From Hyphomicrobiales bacterium (GTDB taxonomy: Bacteria > Pseudomonadota > Alphaproteobacteria > Rhizobiales > Methyloligellaceae): 42,383 nt of DNA. Both the position numbers and the translations under genes were made by a program. The stretch spans positions 1,650 through 44,032 of the forward strand of contig PLBV01000110.1 of the NCBI GenBank assembly GCA_003135455.1, written 5' to 3'. Every line of letters starts with the position of its first letter. Position 1 is the stretch's first letter. Shown here piece after piece: positions 9,758-17,503 of this stretch. The notes under the pieces were generated by a model, which saw nothing but the letters and a program-made list of their open reading frames with translations, was not told where the DNA came from and made no database searches.

Positions 9758-10798
9758 ATGGCAGCAGCCACAGCAGCCACGACCTACCAGGCCAAGCTCA
9801 CGCGCCCGCGAGTCTTCCTCTGGCGCATGAGCCTGTTCCTCATCCTCGCCATCCTGCTCGCGATCATCGTCGACGGCCAGACCCAGCAGCTCCGCAAGAG
9901 CTTCTTGGCCAATCCGGGGCTGAACGGGCTGATCATCGGGGTGCTGCTGGTCGGCATCGTCTACGCCTTCCGCCAGGTATTGCGCCTTTACCCGGAGATC
10001 CACTGGGTCAATACCTTCCGCATCTCCGATCCCGGCCTCGCGGTCGACAAGCCGCCGGTGCTGCTCGCCCCCATGGCCACCATGCTGCGCGACCGCACCG
10101 GGCACCTGCAGCTCGCCACCGGCTCCATGCGGTCGCTGCTCGACTCCGTCGCCTCCCGTCTCGATGAGGCGCGCGAGACGACGCGCTATCTCGTTGGCCT
10201 GCTCGTGTTCCTCGGCCTGCTCGGCACCTTCTGGGGCCTGTTGCAGACGGTTGGCTCCGTCGGCAACACCATCGCCGCCCTCGACCCCAATTCCGGGGAG
10301 AGCGTGATGCTGTTCGACCAGCTGAAGGAGGGTTTGGCCGGACCGCTGAAAGGCATGGGCACCGCCTTCTCCTGCTCGATGTTCGGGCTTTCGGGCTCGC
10401 TGATCCTGGGCTTTCTCGATCTGCAGGCCGGGCACGCCCAGAGCCGCTTCTATAACGAGCTGGAGGACTGGCTCTCCGGCATCACCGAGCTGCAATCGGC
10501 CGAAGGCACCGCCGCTGCAGGCGTTGCGCCGCAGCTCCGCTTCGCCCTCCTCGACATGCAGCGCTCGCTGTCGGATTTGAGCGAGAAGGTCGAGATGCGG
10601 GTCCTCGGCGACAACAGCGGCGAGGCGGTGAAGGACTTGGCGCAAGGGGTGGAGAAGCTGATCAAGCAGATGCGTGCCGAGCAGAAGGTGGTGCGCGAAT
10701 GGGCCGACGAGCAGGCCCAGCAGCAGCATGAGCTCGCAAGCGTCCTCCGCCAGATCACCGAGAAGGCGAAGCTGCCGGCGCGCGAGGAGCGTAAATAG
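9758..10798 (+). CDS. MotA/TolQ/ExbB-like proton channel subunit
   Basis: 346 residues with four predicted membrane helices at about 21-38, 55-72, 144-166 and 198-220. The third carries GLLGTFWGLLQTV, the signature of ExbB/TolQ/MotA channels. A C-terminal cytoplasmic helix follows (about 240-346). The next gene encodes a single-pass protein with a membrane Asp and an OmpA domain, so the pair should form a proton-driven motor complex pulling on peptidoglycan. It is not the flagellar MotAB pair by length and no flagellar genes are near. The stop region contains a 14-base-period duplication (10787-10812). Confidence 0.85.
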   Translation: MAAATAATTYQAKLTRPRVFLWRMSLFLILAILLAIIVDGQTQQLRKSFLANPGLNGLIIGVLLVGIVYAFRQVLRLYPEIHWVNTFRISDPGLAVDKPPVLLAPMATMLRDRTGHLQLATGSMRSLLDSVASRLDEARETTRYLVGLLVFLGLLGTFWGLLQTVGSVGNTIAALDPNSGESVMLFDQLKEGLAGPLKGMGTAFSCSMFGLSGSLILGFLDLQAGHAQSRFYNELEDWLSGITELQSAEGTAAAGVAPQLRFALLDMQRSLSDLSEKVEMRVLGDNSGEAVKDLAQGVEKLIKQMRAEQKVVREWADEQAQQQHELASVLRQITEKAKLPAREERK

Positions 10799-10814: not shown

Positions 10815-11843
10815 ATGGGGCTGGCACGCACGCGCCGGGGGCAGGCCGCGGTCAATTACTGGCCGGGCTTCGTCGACATGCTCTCCACCCTGCTGCTGGT
10901 GGTGACGTTCCTCATGTCAATGTTCATGCTCACCAACTACTTCGTCACCCAGCAGGCGAACGGCAAGGACACGCTGCTGTCGCGGCTGAACCGCCAGCTC
11001 TCCCAGCTCACCGAGCTCTTAGCGCTCGAGCACTCCAAGAAGCAATCGGAGGAGGACAGCCTGACCGCCCTGCAAGCCACGCTGCTCGACAAGGAGAAGG
11101 AGAACCAGCGCCTGACCGGGCTGATTGGCGAGCAGGGAGGCAAGACCGAGGGCGCCGAGAGCCGCGCCACCCAACTCGGCGGCGAGCTCGATCAGCAGAA
11201 GCAGATCACCACCGACGCGCTCGCCAAGGTCGAGATGCTGAACCAGCAGCTCGCGGCGCTGCGGCTCCAGCTTGCCGCACTGCAGGAGTCGCTCGATGCC
11301 TCGGAGGTGAAGGACCGCGACAGCCAGGTGAAGATCGCCGAGCTCGGCCAGCGGCTGAACGTGGCGCTGGCCAAGAAGGTGCAGGAGCTCGCCCGCTACC
11401 GCTCCGACTTCTTCGGCAAGCTCAAGGAAGCGCTCGGCAACCGGCCCGACTTCCAGGTGGTTGGCGACCGCTTCGTGTTCTCCTCCGACGTGCTGTTCGA
11501 CTCAGGCGCCGCCGAATTGAAGTCCGAGGCCACGGGGCAGCTCGACAAGCTCGCCGAGGCGCTGAAGCAGCTGGAGACCAAGATCCCCTCCGACATCGCC
11601 TGGGTGATGCGGGTGGACGGCCACACCGACGTCAATCCGATCGCCACCCCGCAATTCCCCTCCAACTGGGAGCTGTCGGCGGAGCGCGCGATCTCCGTGG
11701 TGCGCTATCTGATGGACAAGGGCGTGCCGGCGAACCGGCTGGTGGCAGCGGGCTTCGGCGAGTTCCAGCCGCTCGACACCGGCACCACCGACGATGCCTT
11801 GCGCAAGAACCGCCGCATCGAGCTGAAGCTCACCGAGCGGTAG
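10815..11843 (+). CDS. MotB-like OmpA-domain protein
   Basis: 342 residues: a short cytoplasmic N-terminus, one membrane helix (about 18-42) starting with FVDML, where Asp21 matches the proton-binding Asp of MotB/ExbD/TolR, then a coiled coil rich in Gln/Leu (about 50-200), and a C-terminal OmpA-type peptidoglycan-binding domain (about 215-342) with VDGHTDVNP and a terminal NRRIELKL. It is encoded 16 bases after the ExbB-like gene and surely works with it. A role in envelope integrity resembling Tol-Pal is inference. Confidence 0.88.
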   Translation: MGLARTRRGQAAVNYWPGFVDMLSTLLLVVTFLMSMFMLTNYFVTQQANGKDTLLSRLNRQLSQLTELLALEHSKKQSEEDSLTALQATLLDKEKENQRLTGLIGEQGGKTEGAESRATQLGGELDQQKQITTDALAKVEMLNQQLAALRLQLAALQESLDASEVKDRDSQVKIAELGQRLNVALAKKVQELARYRSDFFGKLKEALGNRPDFQVVGDRFVFSSDVLFDSGAAELKSEATGQLDKLAEALKQLETKIPSDIAWVMRVDGHTDVNPIATPQFPSNWELSAERAISVVRYLMDKGVPANRLVAAGFGEFQPLDTGTTDDALRKNRRIELKLTER

Positions 11844-11875
11844 CGCCTCCCCCCTTGAGCGGAGGGTAAAGAACG

Positions 11876-14818
11876 TCATTGCACGGTGGCGCCGCCTTCG
11901 CCCACCACAATGAAGGGCGCCCAAAAGGCGGGATAGGCGTTCCACTCGCCCGATGTGTCGTCGATCATAGCAACCATGGCGCGGCGCAGAGCCTCGGAGC
12001 GGCCGATGGAGGGGTCAGCCTTCAGCGCGTCGAAGGTGCCGGTGGTGAGCCTCGCCGCAGCCTCGGAGCCCACCGGCCAGTGCGACACGAGCAGCGCCCG
12101 GGCGCCGGCATAGAAGAAGGCGCGGGCAAGCCCGGACAGAGCTTCGGCCCCCGGCTTGTCCCCGGCCGCCGTGTTGCAGGCCGACAGCACGACCCAATTC
12201 GCATTGAGCTTGAGCTGGGCCACCTCTGAGGCAGTCAGTAGCCCGTCATCCTCAGACGTGGCTTCTTTGGGAAGGGTCAGCGCGAGCGCTGGCTCGGCGA
12301 GGCTCTTGATGTCGCCCGCGACCAGGCCGTGGGTGGCGAAATAGACGATGGCGTATTGGTCGAGTTTGGCTGTCTTGACCGCGCGCTCGCTTGCCGCCGC
12401 TCCTAGATGAATGTCGCTGTCGGAAACGCCGAGACGGCTCGCCACCGCCTTCAGCTCGTCGGCCGTCTCGGGCAGTTGCGGCAGGCCATTCCGAAGCAGC
12501 TCAAGATCGCTCTGACCGCCGCGAAAATAGGCCGAATAGGCACGCGTCTTTGCTCCGTCCTCGGCCTTTGCCCGCGTCCCTGCCTTGCCCGTCCCCTCCC
12601 CCTTGAACACCGGATCGCCATAGCCGGTGAGCGGCTGGTCGCCCGCGCCGCCCTTGACGAGCACGCGCAGGGCTTTCAGGCTGGCGACCGACGGCAAGAC
12701 GGTCACGGCGTGGGTCTTGGCGAGCCAGGCAACGTCCCGGTAGTCGGCAGGCCCGCTCGCGGGCTTCAGCGGCTTCTCCGTCACCAAGACATGGAACGGA
12801 AGGCTGGTGAGCGCGCCCGACGGAACCACGACGAGGTGCTTCTTGCCGGCAATAGTGCTCCCGACCGGTGCGAGCAGGGCGGCATAGAGATCGTTGGCAA
12901 GGCCGATGTCGAACAGCGCATCCTTCGCCTCTTTGCCTTCGCTCAACGCCTCTTGCACCTTGCTGATATCGAGCGCTCCGCGGAGCTTGGCAACCTTTTC
13001 CTGCAGCGCCTCGGCGCCGAGGTCGATCCTCTGCCACTCCACGCCTTCGCGCGTCACCGCAAAGACATAGCTCTCGTCCTTGCCGACGAAATAGGCGAGG
13101 AGAGCCTCGTCCGGACCGAGCAGAGCTTGGGCCTCCTTGATCGACAGAGGCCGGGGACTGGCGAGGACCGCATAATCGGGAAATTGCGAAACGAGCTGCG
13201 CCGCGGCCTGATTGAGCTTGCCCTCAACGTCCGTCTTCTGCTGATGGAGCTGCGCTTCGGCTTGACCATTGCGCTCTTGCGGCGGCTTGACGACGTCGTC
13301 GGCGAGCGCCTTGTCGAGCGCTTGGTACTGCTGCAGCAGGTCCTGCTGATCGCGCACCGCCTTCGCCAGCACCGAATCGCCAGCGCCGAATCGCGCCGCC
13401 ATCTGGGCCAGCGCGGCGCCCGCCGAGCTTTCCCCTGCCCGTTGCGCCGCGGCAAACGCCTCGTCGGTGAGCGCCGGCCTTTGCCGATCGTCTTGGCTCG
13501 CAACGGCAAAGTCATCGGAGACCAGGGCGGGAAAGATGCCGTATTCGTCATGCTCGCTCTTGGCGCCGGTGGCCGAGCCAACCACCTCGTCGGCCCTCTT
13601 GGCAAGGATCGCCGCCGCCTTCCGGCTATAGTCGAGTGCCTTAGCGGAATCGCCGCCATGGGCGTAGAGGTCCGACATGAAATAGAGCGTGGTCGCGACC
13701 GATGGGTGCTCCGGTCCAAACGCCTCTTCCCTAATGGCAAGCGCGCGCTCCAACAGGGGTGCCGCGTCGCCGATCCGGCCTTGGTCCTGGTAGGCAAGCG
13801 CAAGAATTTGGGCGCTCTCGGCCACGAGGGGATGCTGGGGCCCAAGCGTTTTTTCGCTTGTAGACAAGGCTCTCTCGGCCAGAGTGACCGCCTCGTTGGA
13901 GCGGTGCAGTAAATGGTAGTCGTAAGCGAGGCCGTTGAGGCTCAGGATCACGTCAGGGTGGTCTGGCCCGAGTGCCTTCTCACGGATGGCAAGCGCCCGC
14001 TCAAAGAGCGGCAGGGCATCGGCGTATTGCTTCTGCTCCACCGAGGCGACGGCCATATTGGCAAGCGCTCGCGCGAGCTCGGGATGCTCCGGCCCCAGCG
14101 CTTTCTCCCTGATGGCGACTGCCCGCTGATAGAGCGGCATCGCCTCATCGGCGCGGCCTTGCGCGGAATAGGTGTTGGCCAAGTTCTGCAGGGCGCTCGC
14201 GACGTCCGCGCTGTCCGCTCCGAGTGCCTTCTCGCGGATGGCAATCACGCGCTGATAGAGCGGGATGGAGTCGTTGTAGCGGCCGATGTCCTGATAAATG
14301 TTGGCGAGATTGTTCAGCGCCTTGCCAAGCTCGAGGTGCTTAGGGCCCGGCGCCTTCTCATACATGGCGAGCACCCGTTCTCTGAGCTGCACGGCCTCGC
14401 TATAGCGGCCTTCCGCCTCTTGGACGGTCGCGAGATTGGAGAGCGTGTTGGCCAGCCCTCCGCCGGCCTTCCCCGGGTATTGTTGAGCGAAGGCGAGCGA
14501 GTCCTGGTAGAGCTTCTCGGCCTCGGCATAGCGGCCTTCGAAGTAATATGCGCTGGCGAGATCGAAGCGGGCGGCGTCGTAGTTCGGGCTGGCGATGCCG
14601 AAATGCTGCTCGGCCCATTGCAGCAGCTGCTCGGCCGCATGCTCCGCGTCCTGGTACTGACCGGCGCTGATCGATTGGTGAAACTGCCGCTCGACGGCAT
14701 TGATATCCGTGTCCCGGGCCACGGCCGAGATGCCCGGTGCCAGCAACAGGCGGACGACAACGGCCACGGCAATCGCTAGCACCGGCAGCGTCATACGCAT
14801 CGCGCTATCCCCCTTCAA
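11876..14818 (-). CDS. Exported TPR-CHAT (caspase-like) protein
   Basis: 980 residues. A hydrophobic export signal occupies about residues 9-34 (M1, M7 and M9 are all possible starts). Eight consecutive tetratricopeptide repeats of exactly 42 residues fill 73-408, of the kinesin-light-chain type with LGPEHP and ALAIREKAL blocks. A charged Gln-rich helical linker (about 450-540) leads into a C-terminal CHAT domain, the caspase/separase relative. The catalytic pair is intact: YFATHG with His830 and VLSACNTAAG with Cys881. TPR-CHAT proteins include peptidases activated by partner binding. This one appears periplasmic, so its target should be in the envelope. An OmpA-domain gene lies upstream on the same strand with a 115-base gap. 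Confidence 0.9.
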   Translation of the reverse strand: MKGDSAMRMTLPVLAIAVAVVVRLLLAPGISAVARDTDINAVERQFHQSISAGQYQDAEHAAEQLLQWAEQHFGIASPNYDAARFDLASAYYFEGRYAEAEKLYQDSLAFAQQYPGKAGGGLANTLSNLATVQEAEGRYSEAVQLRERVLAMYEKAPGPKHLELGKALNNLANIYQDIGRYNDSIPLYQRVIAIREKALGADSADVASALQNLANTYSAQGRADEAMPLYQRAVAIREKALGPEHPELARALANMAVASVEQKQYADALPLFERALAIREKALGPDHPDVILSLNGLAYDYHLLHRSNEAVTLAERALSTSEKTLGPQHPLVAESAQILALAYQDQGRIGDAAPLLERALAIREEAFGPEHPSVATTLYFMSDLYAHGGDSAKALDYSRKAAAILAKRADEVVGSATGAKSEHDEYGIFPALVSDDFAVASQDDRQRPALTDEAFAAAQRAGESSAGAALAQMAARFGAGDSVLAKAVRDQQDLLQQYQALDKALADDVVKPPQERNGQAEAQLHQQKTDVEGKLNQAAAQLVSQFPDYAVLASPRPLSIKEAQALLGPDEALLAYFVGKDESYVFAVTREGVEWQRIDLGAEALQEKVAKLRGALDISKVQEALSEGKEAKDALFDIGLANDLYAALLAPVGSTIAGKKHLVVVPSGALTSLPFHVLVTEKPLKPASGPADYRDVAWLAKTHAVTVLPSVASLKALRVLVKGGAGDQPLTGYGDPVFKGEGTGKAGTRAKAEDGAKTRAYSAYFRGGQSDLELLRNGLPQLPETADELKAVASRLGVSDSDIHLGAAASERAVKTAKLDQYAIVYFATHGLVAGDIKSLAEPALALTLPKEATSEDDGLLTASEVAQLKLNANWVVLSACNTAAGDKPGAEALSGLARAFFYAGARALLVSHWPVGSEAAARLTTGTFDALKADPSIGRSEALRRAMVAMIDDTSGEWNAYPAFWAPFIVVGEGGATVQ

Positions 14819-14933
14819 GCAAGCCCGGCGACTTACGATGCCGCCGACAGGGACTTCTCCCGGGGACGATTGGGAGAGGCCTGGGCCGCCCGTAACAGCG
14901 CTGTCGGTCTCACATTCCGGGCAGCGCCCGCAC

Positions 14934-15566
14934 CTATTGCTGGGCGACGGGCGCCGCCTGGACGTTGACGATTTGCACCCGGCGGTTCTCGTCGGCGAAC
15001 GGATCCTGGGGGTTCTTCAGCTGCTCCTCGCCGAAGCCGATGGTGACCAGGCTGTCGGGATCGAGGTGGAAGCTATGCACCAGGAACTCCTTCACCGCAT
15101 CGGCGCGGTGCCCGGAAAGTGCGAGGTTGTAGCCGGCGCTGCCCTTGGCGTCGGTATGGCCCGCGATGAGGAAGCTCGTGCCCTTGAGCCTCGGATCGGA
15201 CAGCGCCTGGCCGAGCGTGTTCAGCTTGGGCAGGGTCTCGGGCTCAAGCGCCGCGGAGTCGTAGGCGAAGAACACCTCGACGTCGATCGTGGGCAGAGCA
15301 TCTTCCTTGACCGTATCGGCGATCTTGTTCCGCTGCTCCACGGTGATCTGCCGCGTCTTGGTGATCGTCTTCAGCTGGTCGGCGAGACCGCTCTGGGAGG
15401 GCCCCGACGCCGCTGGGGCCTGGAAGCTCCTGGTCTTGCTGCCTTGCAGGGACTGGATCATCTGCTCCTTGGTCATGTCCTCGGCGTGAACGGCAGCCAC
15501 ACCGAGCATCGCGATCGACCCAAGGAGCACGCCGCCAAGGGCGATACGTGCGAGCCTCATAGCCAC
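14934..15566 (-). CDS. Periplasmic OmpA-domain protein
   Basis: 210 residues with a signal peptide (cleavage near VHA|ED, residue 28), a disordered Ser/Gln/Pro region and a C-terminal OmpA domain (about 95-205) with AGHTDAKGSAGYNLALSGHRA and ENRRVQI, which binds diaminopimelate in peptidoglycan. No beta-barrel or lipobox is seen, so it is probably a soluble wall-bound protein. It precedes the TPR-CHAT gene on the same strand and may anchor or regulate that protein; this is inference from position. Confidence 0.88.
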   Translation of the reverse strand: MAMRLARIALGGVLLGSIAMLGVAAVHAEDMTKEQMIQSLQGSKTRSFQAPAASGPSQSGLADQLKTITKTRQITVEQRNKIADTVKEDALPTIDVEVFFAYDSAALEPETLPKLNTLGQALSDPRLKGTSFLIAGHTDAKGSAGYNLALSGHRADAVKEFLVHSFHLDPDSLVTIGFGEEQLKNPQDPFADENRRVQIVNVQAAPVAQQ

Positions 15567-15670
15567 TTTCCTCCGCTTCTCAAGAATGCATCATCGGCGC
15601 CATGATAGCCTGAGCGCAGCTGAACCGCACCTGAATGAGGCGCCGAAAATCGGAAGGCCAGAAATGGGGG

Positions 15671-17503
15671 TCAGACCACCGCCGCGTCGGGGGCGAATTG
15701 CAGGTCGGCCAAGCGCGCATAGATGCCGCCGCGGGCGATCAGGGTCTGGTGCGTCCCCTCCTCCACCAATCGCCCCTGGTCGAGCACCAGGATGCGGTCG
15801 GCACGGGTGACGGTGGAGAGCCGGTGGGCGATCACGAGCGTGGTGCGCCCATCCATGATGCTGTCGAGCGCCCGCTGCACCAGCGTCTCGCTCTCGGAGT
15901 CGAGCGCGCTCGTCGCCTCGTCGAGCAAAAGGATCGGCGCATTGCGTAAGACCGCGCGCGCGATGGCGATGCGCTGGCGCTGCCCTCCCGACAGCGTCAC
16001 GCCCCGCTCCCCGACCATGGTGGCGTAGCCCGCAGGCAGGGCCGCAATGAAGTCATGGGCGAAGGCGGCACGCGCCGCGGCCTCGATCTCCTCTGCACTC
16101 GCCTCATCCACCCCATAGGCGATATTGGCGGCAACGGTGTCGGCGAACAGCTCGGTCTCCTGCGGCACGATGGCGAAGCGCGAGCGCAAGAGCGCGAGGT
16201 CGGCCTGATCGACGGGGACGCCATCGACCCTGACGTGGCCCGCGCTCACGTCGTAGAAGCGGAGCAGCAGCGAGAAGATCGTGGTCTTGCCCGCCCCCGA
16301 CGGCCCGACGATAGCCACGCGCTCCCCTGTCGCCACATGAAACGTGACTCCGTCGAGCGCGCTGGTCTTGGGCCTGAGTGGATAGGAGAAGGTGACGTCG
16401 TCGAAGGCGATCTCTCCCTTCGGCGGTTGCGGCAGCGGCACAGGCTGCGCGGGAGACTTGATTTGCGGCTCGACCGCGAGCAGCTCGCCCAGACGCTCCA
16501 TGGCACCTGCTGCCTGGCTCACCTCCCCCCACACTTCGCTGAGCTCGCCGATCCCAGCCGCCGCAAGCAACGCATAGAGCACGAACTGCCCGAGCCGACC
16601 GCCGGTGATGGTTCCCGCCAGCACGTCCTGGGCGCCGTACCACAACACGCCCACGACACTGGCAAAGACGAGGAAGATGGTGAGGGCGGTGAGCCCGGCG
16701 CGGGCCTTGTTGCGGGACTTCGCCGCCGCGAAGGACCGCTCCACGGCGCTGGCGAAGCGGGCGGAAGCGGCACCCTCATGGGTGAAGGCTTGCAGCGTGC
16801 GCACCTGGCTTAAGGCTTCGCTCGCATAGGCCGAGGCGTGGGCGAGCTGGTCTTGCGCCTGGCGCGAGCGCGCGCGTACCGCCCGACCGTAGGCCACCAG
16901 CGGCAGCACGATGATGGGGATGGCGACAAGCACCAGCAGCGACAGCCTGGGGCTGGTCACGATCATCATCACCATGGCGCCCACCAGCACCACGAAGTTG
17001 CGCAAAGCTTGGCTGATCACCGTGCTCGCCGCCGCCTTGACCTGGGTGGTATCGGCGGTCAGCCGCGACATCACCTCGCCGGAATGGGCGGCCTCGTAAA
17101 AGGCGGGGCTGAGACCAGTCAGATGCTTGAACACGTCGGCGCGGATATCGGCCACCACCCGCTCGCCAAGCCAGTTCACGCAATAGAAGCGGGCAGCGCT
17201 GGCAAGCGCCAGCACGAGGCCGACGACGATGAGCGTGGCAAAATATTTGTCGACCAGGTCGGGCTCGATGCCGGTGAAGCCGAGATCGATCATCCGCCGC
17301 ACCGCAAGCGGCACCGCCAGCGTGGCGGCGGCGGAAACGAGCAGCGCCACCAGCGCCGCTCCGATCATGCCCTTGTGCCGGGCAAGATAGGGCTTGAGCG
17401 CGAGCAGCGGATGGAGCGACGCCCGCCGGTGCCGTTCGGTGTCGCTGGCGCGGGGCGCCGGCAATGGCGATTGCCGGTCCTGGCCGTTTGGCTTGACTGT
17501 CAC
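15671..17503 (-). CDS. ABC half-transporter (MsbA-like exporter)
   Basis: 610 residues with membrane domain then ATPase domain, as in lipid and peptide exporters that act as homodimers. About six membrane helices lie between residues 46 and 330. The ATPase has Walker A GPSGAGKT (400-407), Q-loop VPQET, signature LSGGQRQ (504-510), Walker B ILLLDEA and the H-loop VIAHRLS. The substrate is unknown; MsbA-type lipid flipping is only one possibility. The gene is divergent from rpmE, an arrangement seen in other Rhizobiales. Confidence 0.9.

Follow-up and report, generated by a model that had tools for sequence, protein, structure and literature searches.

The window, the whole 42,383-nucleotide stretch of DNA analysed here, comes from a contig of a 2.68 Mb Hyphomicrobiales assembly (138 contigs, 84% complete). 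It contains a TPR-CHAT gene and, upstream of it, a gene for an OmpA-family protein, both lying between a MotB-like gene and an ABC exporter gene (Table 1). The open reading frame (ORF) at 11876-14818 on the minus strand, which the first-pass annotation had proposed to encode an exported caspase-like protein, is real and comprises 980 amino acids when read from TTG 14818. Judged by eye, ATG 14800, with aaggggga at 14815-14808 ahead of it, is the likelier start, and the dyad is therefore numbered His824/Cys875; the His830/Cys881 of that annotation is the same pair in TTG numbering. A gap of 133 nt separates the end of the OmpA gene from the ATG of the CHAT gene, and no promoter-like site was found for the pair.

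Table 1. Features of the TPR-CHAT locus (positions within the window)
Feature	Coordinates	Strand	Basis or remark
MotA/ExbB-like protein, outside the cassette	9758..10798	+	PF01618 E 0.0033, below its cut-off
MotB-like core gene (PRK09039), cassette flank	10815..11843	+	in 192/199 genomes at 1e-40
Putative insertion of an OmpA + TPR-CHAT cassette between two convergent core genes	11844..15670		congener comparison
TPR-CHAT CDS	11876..14800	-	974 aa from ATG; longest ORF begins TTG 14818
CHAT caspase-fold domain (PF12770)	11897..12901	-	E 1.2e-58 and structure comparisons
Cys875 codon (TGC), dyad; sole Cys in the protein	12176..12178	-	kept in 81/81 homologous rows
His824 codon (CAC), dyad	12329..12331	-	kept in 81/81 homologous rows
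Helical linker joining TPR to CHAT	13121..13582	-	AlphaFold model
TPR superhelix of nine helix pairs, of which eight recur exactly every 42 residues	13583..14704	-	Pfam, sequence, model
Predicted signal peptide, residues 1-28 (AVA/RD cleavage by eye; exact site uncertain)	14717..14800	-	sequence; homologues
Shine-Dalgarno-like aaggggga ahead of ATG 14800	14808..14815	-	sequence reading
OmpA-family protein with signal peptide, upstream, co-directional	14934..15560	-	PF00691 E 5e-18; SD + ATG read; ORF-list start GTG 15566
OmpA-like domain	14991..15272	-	Pfam
KTRSF, an instance of the recurrent TR[GSAN] motif, close behind the signal peptide of OmpA	15423..15437	-	row comparison
MsbA-related ABC exporter (TIGR02204), other cassette flank	15671..17503	-	profile match

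A Pfam scan of the TPR-CHAT protein gave matches to TPR_12 (E 1.1e-93), TPR_10 and CHAT (PF12770, E 1.2e-58, 199 bits against a curated cut-off of 24), and no match to Peptidase_C14 (PF00656) at E 0.01. The AlphaFold model, built on a 38-row alignment drawing on 37 of the 80 named loci, has a mean pLDDT of 86.8 and shows a hydrophobic N-terminal helix, TPR pairs, a helical linker and the CHAT domain. Confidence is low directly after Cys875, at residues 877-881 and 883-887. Helix pairs begin at residues 72, 114, 156, 198, 240, 282, 324 and 366, which bears out the eight exact 42-residue TPRs described earlier, and one further pair at 33-67 brings the total to nine.

In a Foldseek search with the full model, DdvA had the top E-value (3.9e-12), followed by separase and Csx29. 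Csx29 and the full model could be aligned across 593 residues (Z 26.4, rmsd 8.5), a score that TPR-only structures equal or exceed. The linker-CHAT part was modelled separately (pLDDT 80; alignment from 17 of the 80 named loci), and its closest solved fold was found to be Csx29 (Z 29.2, 363 aligned residues, 3.5 Å, 15% identity), with further matches to separase ctSPD (Z 24.8, 329 residues, 3.9 Å), DdvA residues 686-991 (Z 20.8, 293 aligned), gingipain RgpB (Z 16.5) and caspases (Z about 9). Gingipains are secreted caspase-fold cysteine proteases that lack TPRs and use another secretion route. Searching PDB sequences with the CHAT part, as a single sequence or a profile, returned no true match and hence no solved CHAT structure, so the assignment to CHAT rests on the fold and the Pfam profile.

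The dyad was described in the first reading of the sequence as intact, and both residues are indeed present in every one of the 81 homologous rows from the best 80 of 564 loci. The loci used for the dyad and signal counts were found partly with a pattern (LSACN) containing the catalytic Cys; this conservation is not merely a selection effect, because all 11 rows lacking LSACN retain both residues. Both motifs are also visible in 20/20 CHAT ORFs retrieved by a protein search without the motif. The first ORF of locus L117, which has no CHAT domain, was excluded from the dyad and Cys-site counts. The Csx29 counterparts are H585 and C627, and the substitutions C627A and C627S each inactivate the enzyme, according to excerpts of PMC9729208. 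Since Csx29 needs the matching Cys627, proteolysis is likely for the TPR-CHAT protein as well, and by this analogy it is probably an active protease.

The signal peptide was read by eye as MRMTLPVLAIAVAVVVRLLLAPGISAVA/RD, with an Arg within its hydrophobic stretch. Both the TPR-CHAT protein and its OmpA neighbour pass a signal rule that combines a charged n-region, a 10-residue hydrophobic core and an A-x-A-like site, although the rule's own site in the TPR-CHAT protein lies earlier, at LLLA/PGIS. The rule was drawn up after the N-termini had been inspected, was controlled with ORFs rather than curated cytoplasmic proteins, and was applied to the best 80 of 564 loci. Once 7 of the 82 homologous ORFs had been set aside because contig ends truncate them, 67 of the remaining 75 showed a signal-like start; of the 312 other long ORFs at these loci, 46 did. 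In Bradyrhizobium, named in the titles of 31 of the 80 loci, 29/32 homologous ORFs pass, and 38/43 do so elsewhere in the same best 80 of 564. The eight signal-less ORFs include two partial ones, the second ORF of L117 and that of L118, as well as L104, which has signal-bearing close kin (L105, L120).

Cysteine content was compared over 83 rows, including the first L117 ORF and the window row: in loci from the best 80 of 564, Cys makes up 0.218% of matched residues in close homologues and 1.035% in other ORFs. The matched stretch of the homologues in these 80 loci has one Cys in 57/82, five in 12/82 and another number in 13/82. Extra Cys sites equivalent to positions 608, 624, 744 and 784 occur all together in 12/81 rows, not at all in 66/81 and partially in 3/81 (again the best 80 of 564 loci), a pattern that two disulfides would explain. 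All 12 four-Cys rows fall in one 16-row tree group, which indicates few independent events. When the signal rule was applied to 13 plasmid CHAT proteins of more distant relationship, 8 passed (mean Cys 0.49%) and 5 failed (0.62%; two from Streptomyces and one each from Deinococcus, Azospirillum and Sphingobium). Because these contents overlap, Cys depletion is not a clean export marker outside the close family, and our estimate for export was reduced on account of these controls. The export signal claimed by the first-pass annotation is nevertheless supported by the homologue comparison, and the protein is very probably exported, as judged from sequence. Given the Arg in its hydrophobic part, the N-terminal signal could be a membrane anchor.

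The MotB-like ORF and the ABC ORF are convergently oriented, and in 5/5 congeners examined they lie only 7-10 nt apart, stop codons included; no window-type OmpA was detected at 1e-25 in these five genomes. In the window the two ORFs are 3.8 kb apart, and the OmpA and TPR-CHAT genes occupy this interval. Both flanking genes were in reach in 15 of 20 genomes examined, with gaps of 7 to 1489 nt. The simplest reading of this arrangement would be that a two-gene cassette was gained in the window's lineage, loss from the other congeners being less likely. GC content is 65.1 in the cassette versus 65.0 and 65.4 in the flanks. The GC3 of the CHAT gene is 79 versus 86-94, which is weak evidence of transfer. 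At a locus from a different family (L040, 8980-12240), a TPR-CHAT gene also stands between a MotB and an ABC gene, without this OmpA family; its product is far from the window's in the tree, but the branches concerned have support of 80-91. The MotB-ABC slot may be an insertion hotspot, and the two genes may have entered it independently. A link to Zorya was considered, as the MotA/MotB-like neighbours gave weak ZorA/ZorB matches in PADLOC, and was rejected because the MotB-like gene is a core gene of the order (192/199) outside the cassette. For the TPR-CHAT protein itself, PADLOC returned a generic TPR match alone.

The spread of the protein was surveyed in 199 sampled genomes of the order, its own genome included, with up to 4 candidates scored per genome. 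A match at 1e-20 was found in 34 of the 199, extending into the CHAT domain in 27 and confined to the TPRs in 7. All five sampled genomes of genus g36 have a CHAT-reaching match. Among 16 other genomes of the window's own genus, searched with the CHAT profile, 14 gave no match and 2 gave short weak ones (1.5e-13, 1e-8). The window's own genome holds a second CHAT gene (L002, G000:C129), a broken piece overlapping a serine-recombinase-like ORF. Plasmids of Rhizobium, Bradyrhizobium and Agrobacterium that are typed as conjugative carry related genes, and one plasmid copy has a pair of GH25 lysozyme genes close by. In one relative (G014; locus L042, 1249-7849), a signal-bearing TPR-CHAT protein carries a C-terminal SPOR domain (E 3.4e-9), and its gene is directly followed by an ORF for a PBP-OB, C14 caspase and M23 peptidase protein with a signal-like stretch discerned by eye. 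Nearby ORFs at L042 resemble, by eye, a phage terminase, a ParB/methylase and a recombinase. Since signal-bearing homologues are numerous, the window's protein is not a singular case and is, by sequence, one member of a widespread family of predicted exported proteins.

No conserved CHAT neighbour was found across 104 loci. ABC-type ORFs were the widest neighbour group (10 locus labels), which looks mixed, and the P-type ATPase, SDR and histidine kinase groups near CHAT look incidental. In 100 other TPR-CHAT loci, with some places counted twice and flanks of unequal length, a same-strand OmpA gene of the window's family is nearby, loosely, in one, an OmpA-domain ORF of any kind is present in three (one being the core MotB-like gene), and a C14 ORF is in reach in three. 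With 1/100 other loci, OmpA beside CHAT is unsupported as a family rule. The neighbourhoods of OmpA homologues, examined at 20 of the 44 other places listed, presented another association: a C14 ORF lies immediately upstream of the homologous OmpA gene in 6/20, four of the six loci being from one family (f35) and the C14 ORFs of L217, L218, L219 and L221 being detected with a two-sequence profile. Five of these six C14 ORFs have an altered dyad motif, DASR rather than DACR (L216, L217, L218, L219, L221); that of L210 retains FYYAGHG and DACR. OmpA beside an exported caspase-fold protein is thus a recurrent arrangement, whereas OmpA beside CHAT is rare. The motif TR[GSAN] is found between signal and OmpA domain in 16/22 OmpA rows; it was seen in homologues from L203-L222 and L129, twice in several rows. 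As it occurs also without a neighbouring caspase gene, it was dropped as a candidate caspase cut site except in the speculative module considered below. A functional partnership of the OmpA-like protein with TPR-CHAT is possible but rather doubtful.

Csx29 of the type III-E Craspase shares the TPRs, linker, CHAT domain and His/Cys dyad of the window protein. However, Csx29 works with Cas7-11 and crRNA, whereas the window protein has an export signal, a single Cys and OmpA, ABC and MotB neighbours. The Csx29 protease cleaves Csx30, and separase, a eukaryotic enzyme sharing the caspase-fold protease, reads P1-Arg through an acidic residue (both from excerpts of PMC9729208). No Cas7-11 or other CRISPR-type gene was found among the scanned neighbours (MotA-, MotB-, OmpA-, ABC- and EF-P-type). 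DdvA is a transmembrane anti-sigma factor (titles of PDB 8rot and 8rw5; excerpts of PMC4374960), and it shares the TPR-plus-CHAT fold; its CHAT-like part is presumably periplasmic. The TPR-CHAT protein has no anti-sigma domain, and no sigma-factor gene was found among the scanned neighbours. Probably exported metacaspases were reported in 2012, as was OmpA in 14 predicted metacaspase operons (excerpts of PMC3501461). These metacaspases share the caspase fold and possible signal peptides with the window protein, but they are C14 (PF00656) proteins whereas it is a CHAT protein. OmpA adjoins a caspase-fold gene in the window too; here it precedes the protease gene, while in the six OmpA-homologue loci the C14 ORF precedes OmpA.

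The suggestion in the first-pass annotation of a different kind of caspase-like system is too strong, because exported metacaspases and OmpA-metacaspase operons have been reported and DdvA shares the fold; signal-bearing TPR-CHAT proteins are common, with CHAT-reaching matches in 27/199 genomes. The TPR-CHAT proteases found in the literature act in the cytoplasm, as effectors of CRISPR or cell-death systems, and no description of exported ones was found in the open-licence PMC literature, portions of PMC3501461, PMC10907252, PMC3355149, PMC9729208 and PMC4374960 being the sources used here. What is new is the family-wide evidence for export and the OmpA and TPR-CHAT pair between core genes that nearly touch in 5/5 congeners examined. 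If a large branch of the family is exported with its dyad intact, separase-type proteolysis would operate in the envelope too.

The favoured reading, with a probability of roughly 0.53, is that the TPR-CHAT protein is a cysteine protease of the separase/Csx29 type, that it is exported, and that its gene forms an accessory cassette with the one for the OmpA-like protein. Sec would deliver the TPR-CHAT protein, which would be released into the periplasm, where the TPR superhelix may serve as a docking surface for a partner or substrate. By analogy with Csx29, the CHAT site would be inactive until the linker moves, and the activated domain would then make a limited cut in an envelope protein. The envelope is favoured as the workplace because SPOR and M23 domains occur in one relative and GH25 lysozyme genes near a plasmid copy, and an accessory, conflict-like role because of the patchy spread, the plasmids and the insertion. 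The assignment to envelope surveillance or conflict, with phage, competitors or wall damage in view, is tentative, at somewhat less than even odds, an estimate lowered by the 5/5 presence in genus g36. That same presence would suit a stable role there as a housekeeping periplasmic peptidase or scaffold for protein turnover or wall maintenance with no part in conflict, and the OmpA-type neighbour and the SPOR and M23 context of the relative are consistent with it. Yet the gene is patchy elsewhere (27/199 genomes, with only two short weak matches among the 16 congeners), located on plasmids and, at L042, near phage-like ORFs by eye, so that a housekeeping function is unlikely.

An N-terminus that stays uncut would make the protein an inner-membrane-anchored signalling protease or receptor, its periplasmic TPR-CHAT part sensing a ligand and acting on a membrane partner, as DdvA may. 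The Arg inside the hydrophobic stretch and the standing of DdvA as the best Foldseek match, with its residues 686-991 matching the CHAT model, point this way; the lack of an anti-sigma domain and of a sigma-factor gene among scanned neighbours speaks against it, as does the A-x-A-like site in many homologues, though the signal rule requires one. Such an anchored receptor is improbable, on a par with the housekeeping peptidase. If the N-terminus were hydrophobic by chance, the protein could be a cytoplasmic protease comparable in action to the type III-E CRISPR enzyme. This would accord with Csx29 as the closest solved fold and its cleavage of Csx30, but signal starts are family-wide, the Cys pattern extends through the close homologues, one relative is fused to SPOR and the scanned neighbours include no CRISPR-type gene; this is very unlikely indeed.

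An extension of the favoured exported protease is a mobile envelope caspase module, in which a peptidoglycan-binding OmpA-like protein with recurrent TR motifs in its linker would be the anchor, the sensor and either the substrate or the inhibitor of the separase-like CHAT protease, the same OmpA family serving exported C14 caspases in other bacteria. This extension is speculative and decidedly improbable; if true, the module would parallel, in the periplasm, the caspase-type immunity that bacteria have in the cytoplasm. The acidic residue with which separase recognises P1-Arg presumably corresponds to Ser912 here, judged from a motif alignment made by eye; the pocket thus seems non-acidic, which weakens the idea that the OmpA linker is cut.

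Three further loci are of note. On a Nostoc plasmid (L244, 285-4531), a CHAT gene and the end of a gene for a ShlB/FhaC/HecB transporter overlap, which suggests two-partner secretion of the CHAT protein. On a Pseudosulfitobacter plasmid (L225), patatin, caspase, serine protease and CHAT genes stand in a row beside a CcdAB pair. A contig labelled Frankia sp. RB7 (L062) sits within the Bradyrhizobium CHAT clade, and its assembly is possibly mislabelled or contaminated.
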